From positions 1 through 53,756 of the forward strand of contig PKUA01000043.1 of the NCBI GenBank assembly GCA_002868905.1: DNA of 53,756 bases, given 5' to 3'. The notes under the pieces were generated by a model, which did no database searches, was not told the DNA's origin, and saw nothing but the letters and a program-made list of their open reading frames with translations. The first letter of the stretch is position 1. Every line of letters begins with the position of its first letter. Shown in pieces: positions 33,126 to 37,024 of the stretch. A program made the translations under genes and the position numbers. This DNA comes from Desulfuromonas sp. (lineage in GTDB: Bacteria; Desulfobacterota; Desulfuromonadia; Desulfuromonadales; Geothermobacteraceae).

Positions 33126-33200
33126 GCGGGAATAACTCAGTGGTAGAGTGTCAGCTTCCCAAGCTGAAGGTCGCGGGTTCGAATCCCGTTTCCCGCTCCA
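33126..33200 (+). tRNA. tRNA-Gly (anticodon CCC)
   Basis: GCGGGAA pairs with TTCCCGC; the anticodon arm is TCAGC / GCTGA with loop TTCCCAA (CCC); the T arm is CGGG-TTCGAAT-CCCG; CCA is encoded. Its 3' 45 bases are repeated at 36980-37024, so it served as an integration site. Confidence 0.96.
33156..33200 (+). repeat. Attachment-site copy inside the intact tRNA-Gly
   Basis: This is the left copy of the 45-base direct repeat. It starts in the anticodon loop (TTCCCAAGC) and ends at CCA. The only mismatch with the right copy is a G here against T in the T-arm stem. Confidence 0.75.
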
Positions 33201-33208
33201 AAGAAATC

Positions 33209-33247
33209 AAGCACTTAGAAGGTTTATCTTCTAGGTGCTTTTTCTTT
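33209..33247 (+). terminator. Terminator after tRNA-Gly, carried by the island
   Basis: AAGCACTTAGAAG (33209-33221) pairs with CTTCTAGGTGCTT (33228-33240) with one G-T pair; it is followed by TTTCTTTTTT. It restores a terminator to the tRNA after the island displaced the original one, now at 37035-37064. Confidence 0.85.
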
Positions 33248-33342
33248 TTTTCAGTTTTCCGAACAAATTTCCGAACAATTTTTAAATTAGCCGGGGAATG
33301 TAGGGGTAGGGGAGAACCGATTGGCTACATGTACCACCTGTT

Positions 33343-33381
33343 AACCAGAAGAGCGACCTCGGGGAGGTCGCTCTTCTGGTT
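33343..33381. terminator. Perfect 18-bp hairpin, terminator-like
   Basis: AACCAGAAGAGCGACCTC (33343-33360) and its exact reverse complement (33364-33381) flank a GGG loop, with a short T-rich tail (TTTCG). Either strand could form it. It may end a transcript that entered the island, or may be the remnant of a lost gene's terminator. Confidence 0.55.
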
Positions 33382-33385
33382 TCGA

Positions 33386-33434
33386 TGGTCGGGCGAGAGG
33401 ATTAGAATATCGGACTCCTTTCTTCCGAAGAAAG
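33386..33434 (-). pseudogene. Degenerate 3' half of a tRNA-Pro (CGG-like)
   Basis: Read on the minus strand, CTTTC-TTCGGAA-GAAAG forms a perfect 5-bp anticodon arm with CGG in the anticodon position, and the 3' end reads AATCCTCTCGCCCGACCA. This equals the end of tRNA-Pro(GGG) at 19570-19588 apart from one missing C. The T arm no longer pairs, so it is not functional. Confidence 0.4.
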
Positions 33435-33605
33435 ACAATGAACAGACCCGCAGCAAGCTTCGGGGAATTAGACCCCCATGAAGATTCAGGACCGCGGCAT
33501 TTTGTGTTTTTCTTTCAACAGAGTAATATAGAAATTGAGTAGATCTGGTTCTATTGTAGATGAAATTTTAAGCCAGCAATTTCTTCATCCGAAAAGGCGA
33601 TGCCG

Positions 33606-34927: not shown

Positions 34928-35034
34928 TCGGGATGCTGTAAAACGGCTTTCAGTATTGAAGACATCTATATGAGCCTGAGGCGGCTCGGGATCGAGATGG
35001 AATTCTGGTAGTATTTTCTTATTAAAGGTAAGCT

Positions 35035-35310
35035 ATGATTGATTTATCTCAGACTCTTAAAGCAGTGACCATGCGTGCACAAGATCAAAATGACCTTCCG
35101 GATTACCTTGCGAGTCGGATATTTGCGATTGCTGATCAGCTAGCAACTTCCCAAACCGAGCCTTTATCTATCGATAATTTAATCGAGCAGGTAGAGCTAT
35201 ATGACACTTTTGGCCAGACAGGTTATCTGGGCATGGGAGTGAACCACACAATACTAGAAAAAACGATTCGAAAAATTGAAGTTCTAATAAGAGAGCAAAA
35301 GAATAATTAA
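35035..35310 (+). CDS. 91-residue protein of unknown function in the island operon
   Basis: AAAGG lies 6 bases before the ATG. The protein (MIDLSQTLKAVTMRAQDQND onward) is predicted mostly helical, acidic in the middle (EPLSIDNLIEQVELYDTFGQ) and basic at the end. It has no membrane segment and no recognised domain. It follows the desulfurase and the 59-residue ORF on the same strand, 107 bases after the TAA or 23 bases after the later in-frame TAG. The latter spacing favours the view that the previous gene once ran to 35011. Confidence 0.55.
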   Translation: MIDLSQTLKAVTMRAQDQNDLPDYLASRIFAIADQLATSQTEPLSIDNLIEQVELYDTFGQTGYLGMGVNHTILEKTIRKIEVLIREQKNN

Positions 35311-35653
35311 AATTTCCAAAGCTGCAAATATCGGGACAAGTTAATTTCAATCTTCGACCACTTTCCTTGCGACGAGTGATTTCTTTGAGGATTCATTTCC
35401 TTCCAAATATCCATCAATAGGATGCGAAAATTACCCTTCCGCTCTTGAGGGGCTATTCTTGTTTTGCAGGATCTATAAAAGCCTTGCCAAAGATACAAAT
35501 TCTTTAGTGCAAATTCAGGAGAAGGACATTCAAGAAAACGCACCATTTGGGATATTTTTTAGGCCGAGTGGAAAGATGTATTTGATTGACTTTATTGGGG
35601 ATTGTTGTTAGCTTTAGCTAATAAATTCCGGGCCCGGATGGAAAGGGGGAGTG
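35311..35653. other. A+T-rich island stretch, one doubtful minus-strand ORF
   Basis: A 79-codon minus-strand frame (35307-35546, beginning MVRFLECPSPEFALKNLYLW) fills most of this gap. It looks protein-like in composition but lacks a visible ribosome site, and its stop lies within the end of the plus-strand gene. I do not count it as supported. No terminator hairpin is evident. Confidence 0.3.
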
Positions 35654-36097
35654 ATGTATAAATTTCTCGAAGGCTGCAAAAAGATAGAGGAGTTAGCAAG
35701 TGAAATTTATCACCGCCTTGCAGAGAATGATTCAGTCTCACAAAGCCTGAAAAAAGTATTTAGCCAACTTAGTAGTGATGAAAAGTCCCATGCTCGAAGT
35801 CTGGACCTAATATTTCAAGCGGCTCAAAATGATGTGAAGCATATCCCCTTGATCTCCAATGAGAGCCTTGAAAAGGCAATTGAGCTAGCAGAATCACTAG
35901 CTGAAATTAGTAGCGAAAAAATCCGTAGTGAAAAAATGGCTATAAATCTTGCCATAAAGATGGAAAACGAATTTGTCAAAGTGCATGCGAATAATAGTTT
36001 GCATTTTGAGAATGTTCGATTGGCAGAGTTGTTTCAAATGCTTGGAGATGAAGACCGTAGGCACATAGCAACACTGAAATCTTGTATGGATAATTAA
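35654..36097 (+). CDS. Ferritin-like (rubrerythrin-type) diiron protein
   Basis: This 147-residue all-helical protein has the ferritin-like metal pattern: a Glu in SEIYHRLAEN, ExxH in DEKSHARSLD (helix 2), a Glu in KMENEFVKVHA (helix 3) and ExxxH in GDEDRRHIATL (helix 4). A GTG directly before the ATG is an alternative start; GGGGG upstream fits 35654. There is no rubredoxin domain. Such proteins detoxify peroxide or handle iron in anaerobes. It is in the island beside a cysteine desulfurase, so iron-sulfur or oxidative-stress handling is a possible theme. Confidence 0.72.
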   Translation: MYKFLEGCKKIEELASEIYHRLAENDSVSQSLKKVFSQLSSDEKSHARSLDLIFQAAQNDVKHIPLISNESLEKAIELAESLAEISSEKIRSEKMAINLAIKMENEFVKVHANNSLHFENVRLAELFQMLGDEDRRHIATLKSCMDN

Positions 36098-36198
36098 TTT
36101 GGTTTTTCATACGGGTTTTTCAAAATTTCTGGATTGCAGGATTTGTAAGAGTCATCCAAATTGAGCTGTTTTGGGCTCTCAAAAGGGCCACAATGAGA

Positions 36199-36513
36199 TC
36201 AGGGGGATTCCGCTTGTCGAGCCTTGAACCAACACGCTCTGCACGATTTCTCACTTATGGTCTCTTTATGCGGAACAAATTTCGGATCGAGACCGGCGCG
36301 GTAGAGTAATTCGTGATGAAATTCATGAATGAGGACGTCGACCGAGTTCGTGGTACAGATGTAGGAAGATTTTTGATCGTTACCGGGGAGCCAGAACCCA
36401 TCATAACCATTACAATCAAGGGCAACCTCGACATTCACCCCGGGCAGGTGATGGATTTCATTAGGGAAACAACCGGTCAGGAACAAGAAAAGGAAAACCC
36501 AAGAAAATCTCAT
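36199..36513 (-). CDS. Small lipoprotein with an HEXXH motif
   Basis: The protein has 104 residues from the ATG at 36513. The signal MRFSWVFLFLFLTGC has a lipobox (LTGC, lipid Cys15), so it is membrane-anchored in the periplasm. Residues 63-67 are HEFHH, which fits the zinc-protease motif HEXXH, set in VLIHEFHHELLYRAG. The protein is much shorter than usual metalloproteases, so it may be a protease-like fragment or a metal-binding lipoprotein. GGGGGGTGGG lies just upstream of the start. It faces the ferritin-like gene, convergently, inside the island. Confidence 0.6.
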   Translation of the reverse strand: MRFSWVFLFLFLTGCFPNEIHHLPGVNVEVALDCNGYDGFWLPGNDQKSSYICTTNSVDVLIHEFHHELLYRAGLDPKFVPHKETISEKSCRACWFKARQAESP

Positions 36514-36979
36514 TGCCCACCCCCCGATCTTTTCCATGCAGAAGTCCACCGCAACAGATAACCGAGACGTCAAAGAGTCAGGCCATTTTTTCGTTTAACA
36601 CTCATCAGTAGTTTATCCTAGAGTCGAATGAATTGCAGATTTGTCAAAAATTAGCCAAAACCAGCAACAAACCTGCCCGAACTGACCTCCATCGACTAAT
36701 GACAAATAAAAATTCCCATAATATACGAGTTTCAGTAAAAAACAGCCCCTCCCTGTTTTGCAGGCGAGGGGCTTTCCAATAAGTCTTGTTGCAACTAATT
36801 TCTGAATTACCTAAGGCTATTTAGTATGCGGAGATGTAGGAAAAATCATGCACCGCTTGCCATTTAGGTAACAAATTACAGAAAATTCATCATACATGAA
36901 AATGATCAAAACTCAAAAAGAATAAAAAAACAACACTTTATAAAAGATCGTAGAAGTGGGTAAAAGTGGCTTTTTATGA
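36514..36979. other. Right end of the island, no gene
   Basis: This is low-G+C DNA with a terminator-like hairpin (36744-36773). No supported ORF is present. The 63-codon minus-strand frame spanning 36906-37097 (containing MEREKGFEPATFSLG) is a common artefact of reading tRNA 3' ends as protein. Confidence 0.5.
36744..36776 (+). terminator. Intrinsic terminator in the island
   Basis: AGCCCCTC (36744-36751) pairs with GAGGGGCT (36766-36773); inside, CCTG/CAGG adds four more pairs around TTTTG. A short T-run follows. It works on either strand in principle. Confidence 0.65.
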
Positions 36980-37024
36980 TTCCCAAGCTGAAGGTCGCGG
37001 GTTCGAATCCCTTTTCCCGCTCCA
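36980..37024 (+). repeat. Attachment-site copy (tRNA-Gly 3' fragment)
   Basis: This is the right copy of the 45-base direct repeat, 44 of 45 identical to 33156-33200. It has no 5' half of a tRNA, so it is not a tRNA gene. It marks the right boundary of the island. Confidence 0.8.

Follow-up and report, generated by a model that had tools for sequence, protein, structure and literature searches.

A cargo-bearing island without an integrase at tRNA-Gly(CCC) in Desulfuromonas sp., probably the deletion remnant of an integrated element

We analysed a 53,756-nt stretch of contig PKUA01000043.1 from Desulfuromonas sp. (GCA_002868905.1, Geothermobacteraceae), which is called the window here and to which all coordinates refer, and found at its tRNA-Gly(CCC) gene an island which we think was inserted by a tyrosine integrase and later lost the integrase and the right-end arm sites by deletion, while its cargo was kept (probability roughly 0.8). 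The direct repeat that marks the island is confirmed. Its two copies are 45 nt long, identical at 44 of 45 positions (98%, one mismatch) and spaced by 3824; the repeat extends from the anticodon loop (with the anticodon at tRNA position 33) to the final base of the tRNA. The 53.7-kb window has 31 identical 20-mers in direct repetition, confined to three places, namely the tRNA-Gly repeat (13), 8.7-8.9 kb (10) and 17.2/19.0 kb (8). The 3,779 bases between the copies had a G+C content of 0.447 against 0.542 in the remaining window, and none of 231 flank windows of equal length was as low, so the original prediction, a 45-base repeat of the tRNA-Gly 3' part around 3.8 kb of A+T-richer DNA, was borne out by both counts. 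The restored tRNA and the displaced 3' fragment lie in the same orientation, as in other tRNA islands.

Each copy of the repeat is followed by a hairpin. Behind the right copy, 9 bases lead to a perfect 12-bp hairpin, and the stretch 37025-37070 folds at -27.9 kcal/mol. This hairpin was absent from the list of a simple terminator scan, I think because some Ts are paired inside its stem, and the scan of the window was no richer than that of shuffles (8 versus a mean of 6.6). When the flanks were aligned with 19 tRNA-Gly flanks of relatives, the right flank scored up to 39 (best with L163) and at least 24 with 7 of the 19, and the left flank reached a maximum of 24. The right hairpin thus resembled native tRNA-Gly terminators of other families in the order, and the left flank was less alike. 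On balance, these scores suggest that the right hairpin is native and the left one element-borne. A new terminator on the left and a displaced original on the right had been predicted before, and the scores from other families (39 versus 24) support this, while the own family does not discriminate (see below).

The empty site was searched with the aminotransferase (AAT) gene to the right of the island as query against 136 genomes of the order, own genome included, and close matches (E <= 1e-170) were found in 30 other genomes. In three of these (G042, G034 and G099) a single tRNA-Gly(CCC) stood directly before the same AAT gene and no second tRNA-Gly copy was found in the stretches read, so the site without duplication that characterises a tRNA island exists, and the predicted junction of tRNA-Gly with the hairpin near 37035 could be seen. 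The intergenic stretch of the empty sites aligned with the right flank of the window. It has an AAGG(G/T)T(C/T)AGGC-type hairpin together with the block TTTGAC and one resembling GCTTGAGGTAGAA, and GAGAAAGGTT stands ahead of the start codon. Gene order was CCA-enzyme, tRNA-Gly, AAT, yacG, queD and queE in G034 and G042, and CCA-enzyme, tRNA-Gly and AAT in G099, with yacG 2.9 kb further (the CCA-enzyme matches had only 31-39% identity). The window has the same order, plus the inserted island and one extra gene-sized open reading frame (ORF) between AAT and yacG. More widely, yacG lay at most 6 kb downstream of tRNA-Gly in 12 of 18 relatives for which 7-20 kb downstream were read. AAT is a variable part of this site, since own-family relatives lack it there. 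Six genomes of genus g28 (G072, G105, G104, G040, G101 and G032; stretches L173, L174, L175, L179, L181 and L183) had AAT between two full tRNA-Gly(CCC) genes, and family f7 had it next to tRNA-Gln(TTG), so that AAT would seem to travel together with tRNA loci.

An exact 32-nt piece of the core was present in five viral contigs (L270-L274), and the whole 45-nt core was identical in L271, L272, L273 and L274 and 96% identical over 48 nt in L270. A tyrosine integrase adjoined the core in L270, L271 and L274, and the whole tRNA-Gly was present in L273 and L274. L274 is a prophage in the IMG/VR (metagenomic) contig 3300037722_000851, in which the tRNA and, 9.5 kb away, another 45-nt copy enclose portal, head protease, major head protein and terminase genes, and a 405-residue integrase with Phage_integrase and Arm-DNA-bind_3 domains lies by the right copy. 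The layout of this prophage is that of the window: restored tRNA, new terminator, tandem repeats, displaced copy and native-type terminator. Behind the left core of L274 the new terminator is followed by TTTGCGAACAC twice, 12 bases apart, and the window has TTTCCGAACAA twice with the same spacing, the sole exact tandem 11-mer with a spacing of 11-15 in its whole length. Within 150 nt, the window and 3/3 viral element-side flanks (L274, L273 and L270, the element side being inferred for the last two) had tandem repeats of at least 10 bases, against 0/22 native flanks. The left flanks of window and L274 aligned with a score of 33, which was reached by 1 of 1000 dinucleotide shuffles. From this analysis the TTTCCGAACAA repeats are putative integrase arm sites, and the layout of L274, the shared core and the distribution of tandem repeats are the reasons why we attribute the insertion to a tyrosine integrase.

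The right end looked different. Within 600 nt and with two mismatches allowed, no copy of the TTTCCGAACAA-type motif was found at the right end of the window, whereas the right end of L274 had it at four places, of which three lie no more than 180 nt from the core (150-178 nt), so the right-end arms seem to have been lost from the island. Wider searches added little: the exact 21-mer of the arm repeats had 0 matches in viral contigs, and the gapped repeat pair matched 17 viral contigs in which no att (attachment site) core or integrase was seen by eye in about 200 bases and the neighbouring ORFs. The search for relatives of the L274 integrase returned only L274 itself, and the island ends had no match in phages. 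An 81-base tRNA query matched 329 phage and 227 plasmid records, with the best identity (90-95%) in 2, and the annotated rows looked at were tRNA-Gly or hypothetical protein.

That the island has no recombinase, as had been noticed before, was supported by all searches. A six-frame PF00589 search of the own genome gave two genes, neither on the window contig, the scanned island proteins contained no integrase by Pfam, NCBIfam or PHROGs, and tblastn of five integrases or recombinases against the island gave chance-level matches only. PHROG matches of island proteins other than the desulfurase described below were weak (E 0.036 or worse) and were not used, and conjugation genes were not found among the proteins scanned (Pfam, NCBIfam). 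One PF00589 gene lay in a 14-kb stretch without tRNA and the other about 7.6 kb from a tRNA-Arg; both are probably Xer-type. A possible integrase C-terminus on the minus strand behind attL was considered and is not claimed, as this 41-residue frame had no PHROG match and gave nothing by tblastn.

For the missing recombinase the original prediction had left two options, a deletion remnant or a non-autonomous cargo element, and we favour the remnant because the left arm-like repeats are kept and the right-end motif copies are absent. Deletion of the right part including the integrase is most likely as the simplest account. A cargo element that never had an integrase, and was mobilised by one supplied in trans from a co-resident element with the same specificity, would agree with the lack of any integrase relic, with the intact left att site and its arm-like repeats, and with the same core in viral contigs that do have integrases. 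But neither PF00589 gene of the own genome adjoins a tRNA, both being probably Xer-type, the right-end arm motifs that such an element would still need were not found, a search for the island in the own genome gave no second copy, searches elsewhere having been made with single genes, and one cargo gene is broken; we regard this option as unlikely. Without any site-specific recombination, the 3' end might also have been duplicated when linear DNA with a piece of tRNA-Gly entered the cell and recombined homologously, which would agree with the missing recombinase. Against this, the start of the repeat coincides exactly with that in the prophage contigs at the same gene, and the arm-like repeats and element-supplied terminator are positioned as in L274, which makes this route very unlikely. 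The same genes at unrelated loci had been named in advance as a result that would refute an island. Relatives do hold the genes elsewhere, which fits a horizontally moved cargo, and the evidence from the site stands.

Several points weigh against insertion by an integrase followed by deletion. The genomes with an empty site are from families of the order other than the own one and include no sister strains, and in the own family G001, G003 and G004 have tRNA-Gly directly before yacG, with no AAT and a different terminator. The flanks of these three (L154-L156) scored 13-15 with the right and 14-16 The left-flank alignment of window and L274 only just exceeds shuffles. Over the 150 nt that lead up to the right core, tandem repeats were found in 0/4 cases (window, L274, L271 and L272), so only the motif search separates the window from L274, and the right-end contrast comes from this one prophage. 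No integrase fragment could be recognised, so the loss of the integrase by deletion is a deduction.

Insertion by a tyrosine integrase with later deletion would have proceeded as follows. A mobile element, probably phage-like or a satellite, would have integrated at tRNA-Gly(CCC) by its tyrosine integrase with the crossover in the anticodon loop, and its attP would have restored the 3' half of the tRNA and supplied the new terminator, while the 45-base 3' end of the host gene and its terminator would have been displaced 3.8 kb rightward. A later deletion would have taken the integrase and the right-end arms, and the element could now leave the site only if the cell acquired an integrase of suitable specificity. 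The cargo left is a cysteine desulfurase, two small GSU3529 partners, a rubrerythrin-like protein and a lipoprotein-like ORF (Table 1).

Table 1 Features of the island and its borders in the window
Feature	Position	Strand	Basis or remark
Sigma-70-type promoter-like site, TTGACA-17-TATAAT	33083..33111	+	Upstream of tRNA-Gly; 12/12 matches
tRNA-Gly(CCC)	33126..33200	+	3' part probably re-supplied by element; same 75-nt tRNA in many relatives
attL core, anticodon loop to 3' end	33156..33200	+	Same 45 nt adjoins integrases in L271, L274
Terminator-like hairpin behind restored tRNA, probably element-supplied	33209..33240	+	Terminator scan; resembles L274 attL flank
Tandem repeats TTTCCGAACAA, 12 apart, putative integrase arm sites	33256..33278	+	Repeat search and L274 comparison
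Perfect 18-bp hairpin by tRNA-Pro relic	33343..33381	.	Inverted-repeat search
Decayed 3' half of tRNA-Pro(CGG), anticodon loop to CCA	33386..33430	-	37/46 columns identical; score 45 versus <= 28 in 300 shuffles
Stand-alone DndA/SspA-family cysteine desulfurase	33600..34751	+	Profile searches, tree, 3vax alignment
GSU3529-family protein a	34748..34927	+	In-frame TAA ends frame; homology runs on to 34987
GSU3529-family protein b, open frame	35035..35310	+	Profile search, alignment
Rubrerythrin-like protein	35651..36097	+	PF02915, 1.7e-8
Lipoprotein-like ORF, HEFHHE motif (read by author)	36199..36573	-	No convincing family match
A+T-rich right end without arm-like repeats	36574..36979	.	G+C, repeat and motif searches
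attR, displaced original tRNA 3' end	36980..37024	+	One mismatch to left copy
Original terminator of tRNA-Gly(CCC), probably stranded; perfect 12-bp hairpin	37034..37061	+	Inverted-repeat search; native-type likeness
Aminotransferase (AAT) gene, outside island	37229..38419	+	Adjoins empty site in relatives

The island also contains a trace of a second tRNA gene. The 3' half of a tRNA-Pro(CGG) lies in the orientation opposite to the host tRNA-Gly and is followed by the 18-bp hairpin, and Rfam did not call this relic at E <= 1. Native tRNA-Pro(CGG) terminators were compared at 30 loci including the own one (17 matched the motif and 15 were readable downstream), and none matched the hairpin at 33343 by eye, one (L320) being of the same long G+C-rich type; the own tRNA-Pro(CGG) gene sits at a contig end (C15). 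The relic looks like an att fragment (attR or attP) of an element that had another tRNA gene as its site. Close by, a short hairpin-like repeat GCAAGCT.CGGGG.AT at 33444-33490, which also occurs twice in a stretch of contig C62 (L152 4795-4910), is similar by look to repetitive extragenic palindromic (REP) sequences.

The 383-residue desulfurase had its best match in the NCBIfam DndA model (467.9 bits, narrowly missing the curated cut-off of 480) and two PADLOC matches, SspA and DndA. In the alignment with Streptomyces lividans DndA (3vax) the lysine of S(A/G)HK was kept, and the cysteine of GSAC in the window stood opposite a serine. The former is the pyridoxal phosphate (PLP) lysine and the latter the catalytic cysteine, which is mutated in 3vax. 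The desulfurase was found at E <= 1e-90 in 20 of the 136 genomes; dndBCDE adjoined it in G004 and G066, which have no GSU3529 gene, and each of the remaining 18, among them the own genome, has GSU3529 genes at some place. A tree built from 95 desulfurases placed the window gene in an 18-row clade (support 100/99), whose closest four rows to it were about 68% identical. In the stretches read around these rows (5.5-19.5 kb, some reaching contig ends), GSU3529 genes were present in 15/18 and absent in 3/18, and dndC was present in 0/18. The dnd-linked DndA of G004 and G066 fell outside the clade, and because the G004 row is its next neighbour (89/86), a dnd-type desulfurase is a plausible ancestor of the clade. 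A LysR-type gene adjoined the desulfurase in seven genomes (one Pfam-confirmed) and was absent in the window and its four closest rows. Since none of 20 stretches around desulfurase genes in other genomes contained a tRNA, the tRNA location of the cargo is peculiar to the own genome within the sample.

After the NCBIfam match we first read the island as the remnant of a dnd (DNA phosphorothioation) defence island in which dndBCDE were deleted and dndA was left, and the PADLOC matches also point in this direction. This reading was rejected on the dndC search and the tree. The genome-wide dndC search, which covered the own family, gave no match in the own genome and was positive for G004, the window desulfurase belongs to the clade without dndC in the stretches read with the DndA of G004 and G066 outside it, and desulfurase and GSU3529 genes recur together as a gene order elsewhere. 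We therefore give a dnd remnant almost no chance, and the cargo is not a leftover DNA-phosphorothioation system. As side observations, the tree had a second DndA-like clade without dndC in the stretches read, consisting of 10 rows from Acidobacteriota (support 100/99; L049, L051, L053-L057, L059, L060 and L062), and G004 has a dndABCDE-like cluster with divergent dndA at L102 9697-15911.

The two small proteins behind the desulfurase scored 58.4 and 82.8 bits with the GSU3529 family (NF045727), over the cut-off of 44 bits. GSU3529 genes were present in 58 of the 136 genomes, and because 40 of these have no such desulfurase, the partnership is not obligatory from the GSU3529 side. We aligned 31 copies, a subset of those found, and a Cys-Cys dyad was present in 17/17 first or only copies and in 0/14 second copies (the second copy of L253 has a cysteine elsewhere). 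This pattern and the LysR-type neighbours suggest that GSU3529-a could be a sulfur acceptor in cysteine or sulfide metabolism, and that the desulfurase may take sulfur from cysteine and hand it to the dyad of GSU3529-a. In the window GSU3529-a has an in-frame stop just ahead of the dyad, and the pathway is probably decaying in the own genome because of this truncation; an intact set is present in relatives such as G106. Tentatively, and at somewhat less than even odds, we propose an undescribed sulfur-transfer module apart from phosphorothioation in this order, with a LysR neighbour in seven genomes, in which the desulfurase would pass sulfur to GSU3529-a as persulfide carrier with help from the dyad-less paralogue GSU3529-b. 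It would have arrived here in the tRNA-Gly island, and the island would be a two-stage composite with a tRNA-Pro scar, since the 3' half of tRNA-Pro(CGG) suggests a former end of, or an attP for, an element at a second tRNA. The relay role is a prediction from sequence. The single-sequence structure model of GSU3529-b (mean predicted local distance difference test score, pLDDT, 69.7) was not used and had no match in the PDB at E <= 0.001, the protein had no match in phages and plasmids, and GSU3529 was not named in the literature searched.

Among the other cargo, the rubrerythrin-like protein had no match in plasmids and two weak Cas matches in PADLOC, which were not used, and the lipoprotein-like ORF had one weak match in 135 other genomes.

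Integrase-less tRNA islands are skipped by integrase-based finders and can be proved by empty sites, and a second terminator together with tandem arm-like repeats behind the core offers a simple signature for them. The cargo is a warning that desulfurases which are DndA- or SspA-like by profile may serve a different pathway, and GSU3529-a is a concrete candidate for a sulfur carrier. Compared with DndABCDE and SspABCD, the island desulfurase belongs to the same protein family and aligns with S. lividans DndA, but the own genome is without DndC, the gene falls in a separate clade and its neighbours are GSU3529 proteins; the main text of PMC10853773 on Dnd systems contains none of the terms solo, stand-alone, Geobacter or LysR.

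As for known integrated elements, prophage L274 shares the 45-nt core, a new terminator at attL, the tandem TTT[C/G]CGAACA 12 apart and a native-type terminator after attR, but it has integrase, portal, capsid, terminase and right-end motif copies, and flank similarity to the window is limited. Islander, in the passages of PMC4383910 that define its islands, requires a restored tRNA, a displaced 3' fragment and an integrase gene. No integrase gene was found inside the present island, so it would be missed, although it resembles the anticodon (A) subsite type described there, with both ends marked, the crossover in the anticodon loop and a length of > 2 kb. Cis-mobilizable elements (CIMEs), where PMC5704250 describes them, are decayed integrative and conjugative or integrative and mobilizable elements (ICEs or IMEs) with attL and attR kept, and tRNA 3' ends are a described target. 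The island is like them in that both att sites are kept and the integration genes are gone, by loss, as we infer, rather than by never having been there; it is unlike them in that the left end closest to its own belongs to prophage L274, conjugation genes were not seen among the scanned proteins and an accreted partner element was not noticed. Most likely it is a CIME-like deletion remnant with both att sites, which is ordinary in kind; what deserves attention in it is the module of cargo genes and the scar of a second tRNA.

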